Assembly (NCBI RefSeq): GCF_006715395.1
Contig: NZ_VFNC01000001.1
Location: forward strand, 372,001-436,000
DNA: 64,000 bases
Direction of reading: 5' to 3'
From: Streptomyces sp. SLBN-31
Lineage (GTDB): Bacteria; Actinomycetota; Actinomycetes; Streptomycetales; Streptomycetaceae
Shown: one piece after another, positions 23,451 to 28,961 of the stretch
How positions within the stretch are numbered: position 1 is the stretch's first letter
Layout: each line of letters starts with the position of its first letter
Translations under genes and position numbers: made by a program
Notes under the pieces: generated by a model
Told to the model about the DNA's origin: nothing
The model's input: only the letters and a program-made list of their open reading frames with translations
The model's database searches: none

Positions 23451-24047
23451 TCACAGGCCGGCCGGGTTGCGGGGCAGCCACTCGCGGTGGCGGTCGCGCA
23501 GACGGTCGCGTTCCTCGGGGCCGGCCGCGATGACGTCGGCGCCGCCGTCGTAGGGAAGGTGCAGGCGGCTGAGACCGCTGTCGGTGATGATCACTCCGCT
23601 GAGCACGTCGTCCGCGACCTCGCGGAGAATGGTGTCGACCGTGCCGGGTCGCCAGGGCCGGAGGTCGGCGTAGAGATGCGTGTAGCTGTGGAGTTCGGGG
23701 TCGGGGTCGTCCTCGTACACCAGCGTCGTCCAACGGCTGCCCTCGGGGTGCACCTCGGCCCGCCGCGGCGGGAGTTCGGTTCCGTCCGGGTCCCAGGACC
23801 ATGCCACGGTGATGACGTAGACGTCCGTGCCCTCGAAGAGTTCGTCCAGGAGGGTGTTGTACCGGTGCAGGACGATGGCGTACTCGTCCTCGGTCTCCGG
23901 GTAGCGCTTCGAGCCCGGGAGACTGTGGAAGCGGACCCAACGGTCGCTGTGGCCGGCGCGGAGTTCGTGCGCGACGGGAGGCCCCTTCGGGAACCGGCGC
24001 CGCCACAGCGCGGACAGACGTTCTCCGCCGAAGTCGCCGCTGCTCAT
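23451..24047 (-). CDS. DUF3885-family protein, first paralogue
   Basis: 198 residues from the ATG of MSSGDFGGERL, chosen because the paralogue at 28170 starts at the same place; an upstream GTG is possible. The core RWVRFHSLPGSKRYPE followed by DEYAIVLHRYNTLLDELF is the hallmark of DUF3885. No catalytic residues or membrane segments are visible. Function unknown. A second copy with about 60 percent similar residues by eye lies 4 kb away inside the inserted cassette block, on the other strand. It sits 37 bases downstream of the broken DUF4291 gene and is transcribed the same way. Confidence 0.85.
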   Translation of the reverse strand: MSSGDFGGERLSALWRRRFPKGPPVAHELRAGHSDRWVRFHSLPGSKRYPETEDEYAIVLHRYNTLLDELFEGTDVYVITVAWSWDPDGTELPPRRAEVHPEGSRWTTLVYEDDPDPELHSYTHLYADLRPWRPGTVDTILREVADDVLSGVIITDSGLSRLHLPYDGGADVIAAGPEERDRLRDRHREWLPRNPAGL

Positions 24048-24084
24048 CTCTCGCCCGACGCCACGCCGCCCGGACACCGCCAGG

Positions 24085-24542
24085 TCACCGGTTCAGGTGG
24101 GTCAGTAGTTCGCCCTGAGCGGGGTAGGGCGTCTCCTCGGGCAACAGTCCGCGCGCCGTGTCCAGGTCGCCACTGGAGACGAGTGCGTGTATCTCGCGGG
24201 CGAGCGGAGTCACATCCCTGATGGAGACCAGCCATTCGTCCGCGTAACGCCGTACGGCCTCGCCGGAGAGCCCGAGTTGCAGTGAGCGGTAGGGCAGGGG
24301 CTGCGAACGCAGATCGCGCTCGGGGTCCCACTGGACGCGCGTCGGCGAACGCTTGAGCTCGCGCTGCCAGGTGCTGAGGTCGGGGTGCAGCCCACGTACG
24401 TAACTCGACAGGCACGCGTTGCGCAGCGCCCACTCGAAGCCGTCGCGAGTGATCTCGACGGCAAGCACGGTCTCCTGACCCGGCTTCGCGGCCCAGCCGC
24501 AGCGATACATCATCCACAGAAACGACGGCTTGACCCACGTCA
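24085..24542 (-). pseudogene. DUF4291 gene, C-terminal part (3' half of an interrupted gene)
   Basis: Encodes KPSFLWMMYRCGWAAKPGQ through LTHLNR, 148 residues of a DUF4291 protein, but lacks the family's N-terminal 50 residues. The missing part is found 4.3 kb away at 28826-28961 on the same strand. Both fragments end in the same 12-bp sequence tgacccacgtca (24531-24542 here). Removing 24543-28825 gives one uninterrupted frame of 198 codons, the normal family length. A start further upstream (24579) would add residues encoded by the inserted DNA. The family has unknown function. It is probably not translated into a working protein in this strain. Confidence 0.9.
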
Positions 24543-24555
24543 AGCCGTGCTCACA
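24525..24555. repeat. Cassette junction repeat J1 (left edge of the block)
   Basis: Core tgacccacgtca at 24531-24542 followed by agccgtgctcacaacc. The inner 9-bp arms acggcttga and tcaagccgt also form a perfect hairpin around CCCACG. Left of the core is DUF4291 coding sequence; right of it is inserted DNA. Confidence 0.85.
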
Positions 24556-24620
24556 ACCATTTATGGAGCGGGGAGACACCCCGCGGCCGACGACCTCGAC
24601 TCCCAGGTCCCAGCTGATCG

Positions 24621-25285
24621 TCAGTCGCCACTACTACGGTTGTGGTCGACGCGAGTCCAGAGGGACAAATCGCTGCTCGTCGCTACGGCAAGGGTCTGCC
24701 CGGAGGGGGAGAAGCCCGCGGCACGGAGCTCGGAGTAGTGGGAGTGGAAGATGTGCCACCAGCGCTCCCGTGCGGACCGGAGTGCGGCAGACCGCCGTCG
24801 CGAGAGAGCAGGACACGCTCGTTCGGCCAGGCCGGGGCAACGACCTCCAGCTTCCAACCGTCTCCGCCGGCGGTGTGCAGTCCTCCTCCGAAAAGCCCGG
24901 CGACGCGCACCCTGCTTCCGGCGACCGGTCCCAGTCCAGGACACCGCAGAGCGGGATCCGCGTCGGGGCTGTCGTCCTCTGGGCCAGGGTCACGGTCCCG
25001 TGCGATCTTCTCCCCCGTGACGGCGTCGAAGAGACCGTGACCGTCGTGCGAGACGACCATTACCAAGTCTTCGCCGGTGTCGGGGTGCGAGGCGAATCCG
25101 ATACCGAGAAGTCCGCCGACCGGGGCGTACGCGATGCGCCGCCAGGGCTCGGGGGCCTGTACCACCGGGGCGGCGAGGAGCCTTTGCTTCATCGCCTGCT
25201 GGTAGGCGGAGAGCCCCGACTCAGGGTTTGGCTGCTTGATCGGAGGTTCGTCCTTCGTCCACTTCGTCACGCAACCATGATCCAT
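24621..25285 (-). pseudogene. Frameshifted copy of the WD40-like hypothetical protein (cassette 1)
   Basis: The upstream frame reads MDHGCVTKW to SGPHG and then runs into unrelated residues; the neighbouring frame continues the family sequence with WWHIFHSHYSELR and GFSPSGQTLAVATSSD to a stop at 24621. Compared with the intact copy at 27264-27932, the run of four C in the plus strand is three here (24767-24769), so a one-base loss in a homopolymer explains the break. Otherwise the copies are about 75 percent alike by eye. The last segment resembles a WD40 blade. Function unknown. A sequencing error is the alternative explanation for the frameshift. Confidence 0.8.
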
Positions 25286-25320
25286 GCTGCGCCAGACTCA
25301 TCAGGACGGATCAGGGCTCT

Positions 25321-25363
25321 GCCAACGCTGGTTGATGACCCATGTCAAGCCGCGTTCACAGGC
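25321..25363. repeat. Cassette junction repeat J2
   Basis: Core tgacccatgtca at 25336-25347 (one change from the others), with left arm gccaacgctggttga and right arm agccgcgttcacaggcc. Separates cassette 1 from cassette 2. Confidence 0.8.
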
Positions 25364-25436
25364 CTCTCGTGCCCTGTTGTACTGCGACGTCCGCAATGCA
25401 GGAAATCGGCGCCGGATCGTCGAGGAAGATGGACAC

Positions 25437-26591
25437 ATGGTTGATCACTCTCGCGGGATGTCCTGCATGCCCCTCGTGGGCGAAGAGTGGGCGTATGCCC
25501 TTTGTGGTGGCCTGACGATCCCCGAAGACTTCACCTTCGGAAGCACCACTGTCGTCATCGGCGATGCCGGGACACTGATCATCGTGGAAGCCGGGGACAG
25601 CCTCGATAGGAGTTGCGTGTGGAACGCTGGCGAGGTCCGCCTCCTTGGTCCTGCGCCAACACCGGTCAGGAAACGGCTCGTGGATGAACCCTGGGAGCGG
25701 GGCACAGACGACCCGAAGTTGCCTGTTCATCTGACGGTGCGGATCTCGGAAGGCCTCCTGTATCTAGGCACCGGATCCGTGACTCGGGCGGGAACGGTAC
25801 TCCGTCCGGGCTGCGACGAACACGTTCTCACCGACTGCCTCCTTCGGCTCCACTCGCCCTTGACCAGGTCCAGCCTGGACTTGGTCCGTCCGCTCCTTCC
25901 TCCGGAGGATCTCCCGGACCTGGAGTGGCTGAGACACGTGAACGGCAATCGAGCCAGTGCGCTCGAACAGTTCATCACCGGTTGGTATCCCGCGGCTCCT
26001 GAGACCGCAGGACCACCGTCGGTGGAGGCCTCCGCCCTGGATCTGCCAGACGGACTGCGGCACTTCTACCGGCTGGCGCAGCACCGCCCACGCTGCCTGG
26101 GAGTGCAGAACCGCGTCCTCCCCGTCACCAAGCTCAAGACCGATCCCAAGGGAGAGATGCTCGTCTTCGGCGAAGAGAACCAGGGAGGGTTCTTCTGGTC
26201 ACTGCTGTGGACGCTCGACGGCCCCGAAGTCGATCCGACGGTCTGGTTCCGTGAGTACGACGAGCCTCCAATCGCCGAGCTGGAACCCCTCAGTGGCTTC
26301 CTCATCCAGTTCTCGCTCTTTGAGGCTTCCATGGGAGCCGACTACGTGGCACTGTCCTGTCGACTCACCGCGCAGCAGGTCGACCGACTGACCGTGGCAC
26401 TTCTCCCCGTGCCTCTGCGGCCGTTCTGGCCCGGGGCCCCTACACGCTTCTACGTGGCTCCGGGACTCGTCCTGCATGTCTCGGACGAAGGAGGCGACGA
26501 TGCCTTCAGCGTGTGGGCCGGCGCCACCCACCGCAGTGCTCTCGCTCCATTGGCCGAAGTGCCGGTCGAGTGGGACCGATTCGACGGCTGA
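25437..26591 (+). CDS. SUKH-like (SMI1/KNR4) protein with an extra N-terminal domain (cassette 2)
   Basis: 384 residues; GAGGAAG precedes the ATG of MVDHSRGM. Residues 190-345 look like the SUKH fold: GLRHFYRLAQHRP, QNRVLPVTKL, LVFGEENQGGFFW, VWFREYDEP and EPLSGFLIQFSLFEA. SUKH proteins are widespread immunity proteins against polymorphic and contact-dependent toxins. No toxin gene is next to it, so it may be an orphan immunity gene, a role also common in such islands. The N-terminal 150 residues are not recognised. Codon use is less G/C-rich at third positions than in core genes here, suggesting transfer. The SUKH assignment is by eye and moderately sure. Confidence 0.7.
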   Translation: MVDHSRGMSCMPLVGEEWAYALCGGLTIPEDFTFGSTTVVIGDAGTLIIVEAGDSLDRSCVWNAGEVRLLGPAPTPVRKRLVDEPWERGTDDPKLPVHLTVRISEGLLYLGTGSVTRAGTVLRPGCDEHVLTDCLLRLHSPLTRSSLDLVRPLLPPEDLPDLEWLRHVNGNRASALEQFITGWYPAAPETAGPPSVEASALDLPDGLRHFYRLAQHRPRCLGVQNRVLPVTKLKTDPKGEMLVFGEENQGGFFWSLLWTLDGPEVDPTVWFREYDEPPIAELEPLSGFLIQFSLFEASMGADYVALSCRLTAQQVDRLTVALLPVPLRPFWPGAPTRFYVAPGLVLHVSDEGGDDAFSVWAGATHRSALAPLAEVPVEWDRFDG

Positions 26592-26640
26592 CATCACGAC
26601 ACCGCACTGTCGGCTTCGCCGCATGACACGGGCATGGGTC

Positions 26641-26685
26641 TGTGAACGCGGCCAATCACCCACGTCAAGCCGCGTTCGCAGACCT
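26641..26685. repeat. Cassette junction repeat J3
   Basis: Left arm tgtgaacgcggc at 26641-26652, core tcacccacgtca at 26656-26667, right arm gccgcgttcgca at 26669-26680. The arms pair over 12 bp with one mismatch. Separates cassette 2 from cassette 3. Confidence 0.85.
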
Positions 26686-26755
26686 TTTGACGATGGCCCA
26701 CTGACCTGGGGTCACTCAAAGTGCCTCGTCAGTGGGCGATTGCTGAATACGGGCG

Positions 26756-27181
26756 TCAGGCATCAGCGGCGTAGTAGGCGGCGTATCGGGCCGAGTGCCT
26801 TGCGGTGGTGAAATCCTCGAAGTCACCGGCCGCTTCGCAGCGGATCAGTCGTTGCAGTGCAGCTTCGGCTTGGGGGATGCGCCGACTCGACAGGTACGCC
26901 TTGGTCTTGGCCAGTCCGCTGCCGCACAGCAACTGAATGTCGATCGAGCAGTCGGTGTCCATGCTGGCGGTTTTGGCCTGCCAGATGAGTAGCACGTCTT
27001 CGAGGACCGAGGCGTTGAACAGCTGTACGCAGCACAGCTTCATCAACTCCGTGTCACCGTCTCCCTGCGCACGCTTCTCCAACTGGGTTTGTGCGATGAG
27101 CAGACCTCGCACTTCGTCGAGGTTCGCTCCGGCAGGGTGCAGGCCGTAGCGGAGCAGGCTCTCGTCTTCGTCCATCGCCAT
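26756..27181 (-). CDS. Conserved hypothetical protein (cassette 3)
   Basis: 141 residues from the ATG of MAMDEDESLLRYG. Contains GDTELMKLCCVQLFN and IDIQLLCGSGLAKTKAYL, a helical protein that resembles a repeat-type (ankyrin- or HEAT-like) scaffold by eye but with no firm match. There is no signal peptide or catalytic motif. The ribosome site is weak (AGAAAG). It is transcribed after the WD40-like gene, 82 bases downstream, and the two may be cotranscribed. I recall similar small proteins being common in Streptomyces as uncharacterised neighbours of such genes. Function unknown. Confidence 0.7.
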   Translation of the reverse strand: MAMDEDESLLRYGLHPAGANLDEVRGLLIAQTQLEKRAQGDGDTELMKLCCVQLFNASVLEDVLLIWQAKTASMDTDCSIDIQLLCGSGLAKTKAYLSSRRIPQAEAALQRLIRCEAAGDFEDFTTARHSARYAAYYAADA

Positions 27182-27263
27182 GCTTTCTGTGGGAGCGGAA
27201 AACACATTGTTCCAGGTCACGTCATGCCGATGTCCGTCGAATCGGACGCGCGGTCCGGTTCGG

Positions 27264-27932
27264 TCAGGCTTCGGCGCTGCTGGCGTGGCGTCTGTCCGTC
27301 CTGCGTGTCCACAGTGAGATGTCGCTGCTCGTCGCCACGGCGAGGGTCTGCCCGGAGGGCGAGAATCCAGCGGTACGGAGCTCGGAGTAGTTGGAGTGGA
27401 AGATGTGCCACCAGTGCTCCCCGTGCGGGCCGGAGTGCGGCAGACCGCCGTCGCGAGAGAGCAGGACACGCTCGTTCGGCCAGGCCGGGGCAAGGACCTC
27501 CAGCTTCCAGCCGTCTCCGCTGGTGGTGTGCAGTCCTCCGCCAAAAAGTCCGGCGATGCGCACCCTGCTTCCGGCGACCGGTCCCAACCCAGGACACCAC
27601 ATAGCGGGGTCCGCGGCGCGGCTGCTGTCCTTGGGGTCCGCGTCACGATCCCGCGCGCTCTTCTCGCCGGTGACGGCGTCGAAGAGACCGTGCCCGTCGT
27701 GGGAGACGACGACCACCAGATCGTGGCCGGTGTCGGGGTCCGTCGCGAAGCCGATCCCGAGCAGTCCGCCGACAGGGACGCCGTACTGGTACTCGAAGAC
27801 GGGCCGCCAGGGGGCGGGCGCGGGCACCACCGGGGCCGCGAGAATCCGGTTCCGCAACGCCCGCTGGTAGTACGGGAGTTCGGGCTCATGATCGGACTGA
27901 CCGACCGGGGGCGTCTCCTTCGTCCACTTCAT
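27264..27932 (-). CDS. Hypothetical protein with a C-terminal WD40-like segment, intact copy (cassette 3)
   Basis: 222 residues from the ATG of MKWTKETPP. Four or five short beta-rich units are visible, such as GFATDPDTGHDLVVVVSHDG and GFSPSGQTLAVATSSDISLW; the latter closely follows the pattern of a WD40 or beta-propeller blade. The protein is too short for a full seven-blade propeller, so it may form part of one or dimerise. There is no signal peptide. A second, frameshifted copy lies in cassette 1 in the same orientation. Ribosome site unclear. No function can be assigned beyond a probable binding role. Confidence 0.72.
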   Translation of the reverse strand: MKWTKETPPVGQSDHEPELPYYQRALRNRILAAPVVPAPAPWRPVFEYQYGVPVGGLLGIGFATDPDTGHDLVVVVSHDGHGLFDAVTGEKSARDRDADPKDSSRAADPAMWCPGLGPVAGSRVRIAGLFGGGLHTTSGDGWKLEVLAPAWPNERVLLSRDGGLPHSGPHGEHWWHIFHSNYSELRTAGFSPSGQTLAVATSSDISLWTRRTDRRHASSAEA

Positions 27933-28059
27933 CACGGGACCATGATCCTCGCCTCGAAAGGCCGGCCCCAAAAGTGCCCCTGGTCCACCGCACAGGCGCA
28001 GCCCGCGTCCACCGTGATCGGGATGGACGCCTGCCTTGCTTGGTGGGCTGTACCTTGTG

Positions 28060-28169
28060 CCCGGCGGACGGCTACCGCCAGCAGTATCTTGACCGCGACA
28101 TCAACGACCATGACGGGACCGGCGTCTCCTGTCCGATCGGTGTCGTTCCGACCAAGGGGGAGTGTCGCC
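28060..28169 (+). pseudogene. C-terminal fragment of an msrA-like gene (cassette 3)
   Basis: One frame reads CPADGYRQQYLDRD, then DGTGVSCPIGVVPT. This matches the end of peptide methionine sulfoxide reductase A, where [11 protein letters not shown] and GTGVSCPIGV are typical. The resolving-cysteine segment GYCGIGG between them is lost, and no catalytic domain with GCFWG lies upstream. The fragment runs into the ribosome site of the DUF3885 gene. It is a relic, not a gene. Confidence 0.7.
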
Positions 28170-28754
28170 ATGGGCCCTGATCTCCTGGCGGCTTTGTGGA
28201 AGGAACGGCATCCGTCAGGCCCTCCCGTCGCTCACACGTTCCGCACCAGGTACGCCGATCGCTGGGTGCGCTTTCACAGCCTTCCCGGCTCGAAGCGTTA
28301 CCCGGAGTCCGAGGACGAGTACGCGATCGTGCTGGACCGGTACAACACGATCCTCGACGAGTTGTTCGCGGACACCGACGTGTTCGTGGTGACCATGGAC
28401 TGGTCGAACACACCAACTGGGCCTGCGGGCTACCCGACTCCACGACCGATGCTGCACCCCGACGGCGTCCGCTGGTGGACCGAGTCAGACCAGGACGACC
28501 CCGACCCGGAGTTCCACACCCACACGCGTCTGTATGCCGACCAGCGCCGGTGGAACCGCGGATGCATTGACGAACTGTTGCGAGCCGTCGCGGACGAGGC
28601 GCTCGTCGAAGTCTTCGTTGCCGACACAGAACTGCGGCGCATCCACCATCCCTACGACGGCGGCGCAGACGTCATCCTTGCCACGCCCGCAGAGCGTGAC
28701 GGTGTGCGTGACCAACACACGGCCTGGCTTTCCAGCCACCCAGCCGGCCTCTGA
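28170..28754 (+). CDS. DUF3885-family protein, second paralogue (cassette 3)
   Basis: 194 residues; a GGGGGAG site precedes ATG. The domain core RWVRFHSLPGSKRYPE and DEYAIVLDRYNTILDELF is nearly identical to the paralogue at 23451-24047, and the C-terminal HPYDGGADVI region is also shared. Differences are spread through the rest of the protein, so the two are diverged paralogues rather than a fresh duplicate. No catalytic motif or membrane segment. Function unknown. The gene lies at the right edge of the inserted block on the plus strand, opposite to the other copy. Confidence 0.83.
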   Translation: MGPDLLAALWKERHPSGPPVAHTFRTRYADRWVRFHSLPGSKRYPESEDEYAIVLDRYNTILDELFADTDVFVVTMDWSNTPTGPAGYPTPRPMLHPDGVRWWTESDQDDPDPEFHTHTRLYADQRRWNRGCIDELLRAVADEALVEVFVADTELRRIHHPYDGGADVILATPAERDGVRDQHTAWLSSHPAGL

Positions 28755-28797
28755 GAGCCGCGCGGGCCCCTTTCCCCGGCCGAACTGCGCAGGAGTC

Positions 28798-28826
28798 TGT
28801 GAACGCTGCTTGATGACCCACGTCAT
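28798..28826. repeat. Cassette junction repeat J4 (right edge of the block)
   Basis: Left arm tgtgaacgctgcttga at 28798-28813 directly followed by the core tgacccacgtca at 28814-28825, identical to J1. Right of the core begins DUF4291 coding sequence in antisense. Confidence 0.85.
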
Positions 28827-28961
28827 CCTGTCCCGCTTCCACGCGGCGGGGAACCTTCCTTCGCGGACGGCGGCCAGGCCGATTTCCGGGGAGTAGGCCT
28901 GATAGACGGTGATCGTGGATTCCGAGTGGACCGCACGGATCCCGCGTTGCGGTTCTTCCAT
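28814..28961 (-). pseudogene. DUF4291 gene, N-terminal part (5' fragment of an interrupted gene)
   Basis: Starts at the ATG of MEEPQRGIRAVHSES and reads ITVYQAYSPEIGLAA to KRDRMTWV, the first 49 residues expected of a DUF4291 protein. It then enters the junction repeat (IKQRSQT) and unrelated sequence. The frame at the 12-bp core is the same as in the C-terminal fragment at 24085-24542, so the two halves would join in frame as MTWV-KPSFLW, which is the conserved family motif. The ribosome site and any promoter remain with this half. Confidence 0.88.

Follow-up and report, generated by a model that had tools for sequence, protein, structure and literature searches.

In bacteria, the textbook example of gene-cassette capture is the integron, which relies on a tyrosine integrase; integron arrays consist of small, oriented cassettes, with palindromic junctions and a docking site. 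In the staphylococcal cassette chromosome (SCC), Ccr serine recombinases act at the target gene orfX, and tandem cassettes, some without a recombinase of their own, occupy that one gene. Here we describe an array of gene cassettes inserted in a DUF4291 gene of Streptomyces sp. SLBN-31, within a 64,000-nucleotide stretch of contig NZ_VFNC01000001.1 (positions 372,001 to 436,000; hereafter the window). The nearest described process is the accretion of integrase-less elements (cis-mobilizable elements, CIMEs) at the attachment site of an integrative and conjugative element (ICE) or its actinomycete form (AICE): according to passages of two publications, such elements share attachment (att) ends with the integrase-coding element and pile up at a single target site, attB (PMC5704250, PMC9513070). 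We consider it likely that the cassettes described here are non-autonomous mobile units that accreted at one DUF4291 attB by conservative site-specific recombination, helped in trans by a DUF4291-specific clade of large serine recombinases (LSRs).

The array comprises three cassettes that lie head to tail and in one direction within positions 24540-28813, delimited by two complete inner junctions and one boundary at each end (Table 1). All four junction copies named in the original prediction were recovered at the predicted core positions, with 0, 1, 1 and 0 changes relative to TGACCCACGTCA. We redefined the core as 9 bp, TGACCCACG on the plus strand and CGTGGGTCA in the sense of DUF4291, which is encoded on the minus strand. 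Read in that sense, a junction consists of a 3' arm, CTGTGAACGCGGCTTGA, the core CGTGGGTCA, and an inverted 5' arm, TCAAGCCGCGTTCACAG. By itself, the core is weakly in excess of chance, with 13 matches in the window at up to 2 mismatches against a shuffle mean of 7.6 (1 of 100 shuffles reached 13). The core combined with its inverted arms is clearly the real signal: at up to 4 mismatches the 17-bp arm finds 8 sites in about 128,000 window positions, of which 6 belong to these junctions and the other 2 do not. The claim that inverted arms surround every core holds for the inner junctions; each outer junction has a single cassette arm, and its opposite side is DUF4291 itself. Likewise, the proposed division into units of about 0.8, 1.3 and 2.1 kb stands, with the qualification that the longest seems to have arisen by fusion of two or more earlier cassettes. 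The host gene, correctly recognized in the original prediction, is split at codons M-T-W-V-K. Since the 9-bp core is the DNA of these codons, the empty target would read ATGACGTGGGTCAAGCC. Neither the list of open reading frames (ORFs) nor Pfam analysis of the main ORFs revealed a recombinase inside the array, as had been stated.

The element is not local to this strain. Among 392 Streptomyces genomes, a first search with one cassette end matched 77 genomes, many by chance as judged from a reversed control, and pointed to clustered ends. The junction set, assembled from fetched regions and a contig scan with a degenerate junction after removal of duplicates, contains 71 distinct complete cassette-cassette junctions, 29 N-side boundaries (B) and 25 C-side boundaries (E; 21 cassette-type and 4 belonging to LSR elements). 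Boundaries were assigned to B or E by the similarity of their DNA to the DUF4291 flanks, and 13 locus identifiers (duplicates, L053/L054 and L082) were removed before the final counts. For 26/29 B and 24/26 E (50/55 in total, the 26 E including the duplicate L157), the end of a protein match to DUF4291 lies no more than 60 bp from the site; the B of L091 and the E of L052, which have no such match at the site, were kept in the counts. At least one B or E is present in 45 of 62 loci, and all sites within a locus share the same orientation in 61 of 62, the exception being one weak site in L063. The original prediction had named a different target at each occurrence as the sign of a known insertion sequence (IS) or miniature inverted-repeat transposable element (MITE); the readable boundaries lie instead at the same DUF4291 codons.

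The N-side boundary pattern was found in 28/392 genomes versus 8/392 in the reversed control, and 26 of its 34 places, in 24 genomes, were judged true by reading. An intact or C-side target occurs in 291/392 genomes (control 0). One array, in G024, measures about 23 kb from boundary to boundary. Exact matches in the degenerate-junction contig scan gave 27 stretches, 24 of them from Streptomyces, 2 from one actinobacterial contig and 1 from a Poribacteria metagenome-assembled genome, which was taken as chance and dropped. Phages gave no match of junction length, and viral contigs gave 0 exact matches to the degenerate junction. Among plasmids a single complete junction was found, without a DUF4291 match within the 18 kb fetched; it lies on a 970-kb Streptomyces cadmiisoli plasmid (L177 8997-9039; NZ_CP030074.1 ~721082-721120). 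At L098 5121, additional junctions flank a C-side DUF4291 boundary, which could reflect growth of an array inside a cassette-borne DUF4291 copy or the joining of two arrays.

Different genes lie between the junctions at other loci, drawn from a common pool whose order differs between arrays. We cut out 75 distinct cassettes, some bounded by unclassed sites, which range from 0.6 to 4.4 kb (median about 1.3 kb) and mostly carry one or two genes. Recurrent ORF families keep one orientation (9/9, 8/8, 7/7, 6/6 (one a spurious ORF), 3/3 and 3/3), with exceptions in two families (5/6 and 2/3). Several cassettes align end to end between loci: L061 and L091 (90% over 1107 bp), L072 and L100 (88% over 1213 bp), L055 and L057 (91% over 986 bp), and L056 and L092 (84% over 2382 bp). 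A further pair, L057 and L096, is 95% alike over 1448 bp, the L057 copy ending at a degenerate site outside the cut-out set. G360, G326 and G201 have 400-bp cassette ends that are at least 95% identical to cassette ends from other genomes.

The recurrent cargo includes a 220-aa family with no Pfam match, found at 9 loci, and intact DUF4291 copies in reverse orientation, found at 7. Also recurrent are DUF3885, a 404-aa family, APH-type kinases, and Mrr-type endonucleases with or without TerD, the endonucleases matching type IV restriction models (PADLOC); an M48 peptidase, AlkZ, a SpoIIE phosphatase, AAA and SMI1/KNR4 genes were found once or twice. Seven of 18 listed intact DUF4291 copies (L060, L073, L074, L078, L079, L098, L120) keep M-T-W-I-K and use ATT or AAA codons at that place, so that the attachment site is altered silently. 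This alteration could protect the copy from insertion, but the copies are related to one another. Within one cassette of G024 lies a fragment of an ISL3-type DDE transposase (L059 8600-8851). In the window, a second DUF3885 gene adjoins DUF4291 on the chromosome (23451-24077), with stretches about 73% alike in DNA, inverted, to the DUF3885 gene of cassette 1 (28170-28754).

The behavior of the core indicates how cassettes are exchanged. Where both sides of a locus are readable, the two cores differ in 5 of 9 pairs and agree in 4, the window among the latter. Core position 6 is G in 18/29 B versus 2/21 cassette-type E (P 3e-4); among the matches listed of other targets it is G in 9/142 and A in 133/142, the 142 being 150 listed rows less 8 of C-side type, with some rows cassette-borne copies or paralogues. 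This directed difference suggests that the right part of the core came from the cassette on the N side and from the host on the C side. The right part of the core moves with the downstream cassette: when 5' ends at least 90% alike have unrelated left neighbors, core positions 5-9 agree in 14/23 pairs (shuffled 5.8, P 0.0006) and positions 1-2 in 9/23 (shuffled 9.6). At 85% or more, the corresponding values are 25/61 (shuffled 15.5, P 0.02) and 24/61 (25.4). Because homologous cassettes share positions 5-9 and not 1-2, the exchange point probably lies near the TG at positions 3-4, which is nearly invariant (T 67/70, G 70/70). The two cassette ends have distinct consensus sequences. No covariation was detected between the arms of 67 junctions (214 mismatches versus 214.9 in shuffles) or between the two arms of a cassette (54 cassettes), and this result, though an indirect test, speaks against a folded attC as the basis of the junction.

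Of the integron-like and helper-dependent readings in the original prediction, the latter is the better one, as no recombinase was found inside the array and a matching LSR occupies the same site in other strains. Array loci were probed with 30 tyrosine-recombinase and 22 LSR queries from ten array genomes. At L118 (genome G300), a 7.6-kb insert splits DUF4291; its first gene lies 23 bp past the core and encodes a 505-aa LSR with Resolvase and Recombinase domains (its zinc ribbon falls just under the cut-off, and above it in L215). Relatives of this LSR occur in 36/392 genomes. Of 39 matches, 30 had a locus that was examined; nine without a locus, including those in G277 and G233 (67-70% alike over fragments), were left out. 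The seven closest of the 30 homologues (best stretch 81-100% identical), two of them partial or broken genes, follow a DUF4291 N-part cut at exactly these codons, and the remaining 23 (52-66%) show no DUF4291 match. In a tree of 25 rows, the six usable members of the seven form one clade (support 100/99).

The ends of these LSR elements resemble those of the cassettes, with their 5' arms lying 3 bp closer to the core. All seven 5' ends differ from the cassette 5' arm by 2-4 mismatches of 17, and in the four with the far end in view (L118, L214, L215, L216), that end is a cassette 3' arm (1-4 mismatches of 17) that adjoins the DUF4291 C-part. Read by eye, the ends of the L118 element form a perfect 8-bp inverted repeat around TG. 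Four of the seven (L213-L216) carry RepSA and FtsK-type genes (Pfam on one) and are AICEs; these genes are not present in L118. The other LSR homologues follow recurring upstream sequences of different kinds. Sister clades (L188-L206, L209, L210, L212) lie at a similar distance after other chromosomal sequences, which by reading include an LLM-type oxidoreductase and an EamA-like transporter. An LSR beside the array of G360 (L060 7109-8587) is about 27% identical to that of L118, lies outside the split gene, and was not taken as the helper; in G360, an AICE with a different LSR is found just past the DUF4291 C-part (L060 2676-8587). The array of G255 also has part of a related LSR nearby (L108 4357-4724).

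Together, these features lead us to propose the following route. The cassette ends would act as attP-like half-sites, TCAAGCCGCGTTCACAG at the 5' end and AAAGGtCTGTGAACGCGGCTTGA at the 3' end. A free circle, reading 3' end, core, 5' end, would recombine at the central TG with the DUF4291 codons or with any existing junction and leave a core on each side, so that the array could grow and reshuffle. The enzyme would most likely come from the DUF4291-specific LSR clade and be provided in trans by elements, including AICEs, that use this target and whose ends are almost those of the cassettes. The cassettes may be LSR elements stripped of all else or a separate line at the same site.

Several observations weigh against this proposal. 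Neither a circular form nor an excision was seen, nor an empty site in a sister strain. After the core half, cassette 5' ends read TCA-TCAAGC and LSR elements TCAAGC, 3 bp less, so a different enzyme may act on the cassettes. The far end was not found in L213 (about 17 kb in view), L217 or L218. A DUF4291-clade LSR is present in only one (G365) of 24 accepted array genomes, and the window genome has none, with neither a PF07508 match nor a hit to the L118 LSR at 1e-40 (small resolvases were not searched for). The 3'-end counterpart of the core test shows a trend: at 90% or more the left part is the same in 5/7 pairs (shuffled 2.9, P 0.10), and at 85% or more the left agrees in 9/17 (P 0.23) and the right in 8/17 (P 0.14). 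Core position 2 is C in 42/142 other targets among the matches listed, compared with 0/29 B and 0/25 E. Finally, there is some circularity in the definition of the boundary classes, 11 one-armed sites fall outside both B and E, and a DUF4291 match is absent in 13/62 loci, mostly short ones with a single junction.

Could the units instead be what decay has left of AICEs or mobilizable elements inserted one after another, a CIME-type accretion now spreading only by homologous recombination of the DUF4291 region and not as cassettes? AICE accretion and decay at a single site has been described in Streptomyces, in a passage of PMC9513070. Five array loci (L056, L060, L073, L108, L118) have LSR genes or gene fragments nearby, and cassette 1 looks like a fusion. 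However, different genomes share some cassettes over their whole length, ends included, beside unrelated neighbors; the 3-bp feature is common to cassette junctions and absent from the seven LSR elements read; and many units are of one-gene size. This combination does not resemble independent decay, and we regard that explanation as unlikely.

A tyrosine recombinase acting, as in integrons, on folded or double-stranded palindromic junctions would account for the palindromic 17-9-17 layout, the oriented cassettes and the common site, and such enzymes were found in 10 of the 10 array genomes searched. Against it, the 30 tyrosine-recombinase queries matched near array loci L070 and L106 only, so that no such enzyme is a constant neighbor of the arrays, the arms lack covariation, and the LSR clade occupies the very site; we therefore consider this route quite improbable. 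More improbable still is IS- or MITE-like DDE transposition into a very strict target with a 9-bp duplication. Inverted ends with a 9-bp repeat on either side do resemble terminal inverted repeats with a target site duplication, and one cassette contains the ISL3-type fragment. Yet the cores at the two ends differ in five of the nine paired loci and show the directional B/E bias, cassette families keep a single orientation, and the two ends have distinct consensus sequences.

The cassettes can be set beside the known systems. As in CIME/AICE accretion, cassettes and the seven closest LSR homologues, four with AICE genes, cut DUF4291 at the same codons. Their ends agree in part: the 3' ends match in the four readable elements, and the 5' arms match but stand 3 bp further from the core in the cassettes. 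The cassettes differ in their size, their mostly one- or two-gene content, the shared pool with varying order, and an end feature that they have in common and that the seven LSR elements read lack. Tandem cassettes at one gene and a serine recombinase recall SCC, whereas the target here is DUF4291, the genus is another, most arrays have no LSR, and the LSR matches CcrA/B/C models far under curated cut-offs. The resemblance to integrons lies in appearance and probable working (oriented small cassettes, palindromic junctions, a docking site) and does not extend to membership: no tyrosine integrase (intI) stands beside the window array, and the covariation test, an indirect one, gave no sign of a fold-maintained attC-type site. 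Our best reading is a cassette system that works like an integron or SCC and belongs to neither. In Dehalococcoides, 31 ssrA-specific genomic islands occupy one gene and 16 of them have the integration module; target, phylum and cargo differ from ours, and the vcrABC islands in this set are about 12 kb (PMC3146451).

Table 1. Features of the DUF4291 cassette array, in window coordinates and in the order of the DUF4291 sense.
Feature	Position	Strand	Details
DUF4291 N-terminal part, aa 1-49, boundary B	28815..28961	-	tblastn; PF14124 on 28827-28961
Core of boundary B (J4)	28814..28822	-	CGTGGGTCA in gene sense; border of N-part and first cassette
Cassette 1	26665..28813	-	2149 bp; 5' arm 28797-28813; looks like fusion of former cassettes
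DUF3885 gene in cassette 1	28170-28754	+
Recurrent 235-aa gene in cassette 1	27264-27971	-
139-aa gene in cassette 1	26756-27175	-
Core of J3	26656..26664	-	CGTGGGTGA in gene sense; inverted arms 26637-26652 and 26669-26684
Cassette 2	25345..26655	-	1311 bp
Cassette 2 gene, 404 aa	25377-26591	+	no Pfam/NCBIfam match; relatives in arrays L059, L060, L062, L075
Core of J2	25336..25344	-	CATGGGTCA in gene sense; arms 25345-25361 and (degenerate) 25319-25335
Cassette 3	24540..25335	-	796 bp
Diverged copy of 235-aa gene, in cassette 3	24683-25285	-
Core of boundary E (J1)	24531..24539	-	CGTGGGTCA in gene sense; border of last cassette and C-part; cassette 3' arm 24540-24556
DUF4291 C-terminal part, aa 46-195	24094..24543	-	tblastn; PF14124 E 2.3e-56 on 24085-24579

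Our literature search returned no paper for "DUF4291" and, by title and abstract opening, nothing on this cassette system. Within that literature, what is new is the scale: the units are small, mostly of one or two genes, they form a common pool, and throughout the genus they dock at one fixed gene. Whether Streptomyces has an equivalent of the integron run by serine recombinases, in which mostly one- and two-gene units from a genus-wide pool are captured and reshuffled at DUF4291 by parasitizing the integrases of conjugative elements that share the site, is in our judgment an evenly balanced question. If so, a second enzyme class would have arrived at the same solution to cassette capture, in a genus noted for its gene exchange and natural products. 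Such a system would also account for the spread of single genes of unknown function, among them DUF3885, copies of DUF4291 and type IV restriction enzymes, between Streptomyces species, and it would provide a ready-made docking site for multiple inserts by a serine integrase.

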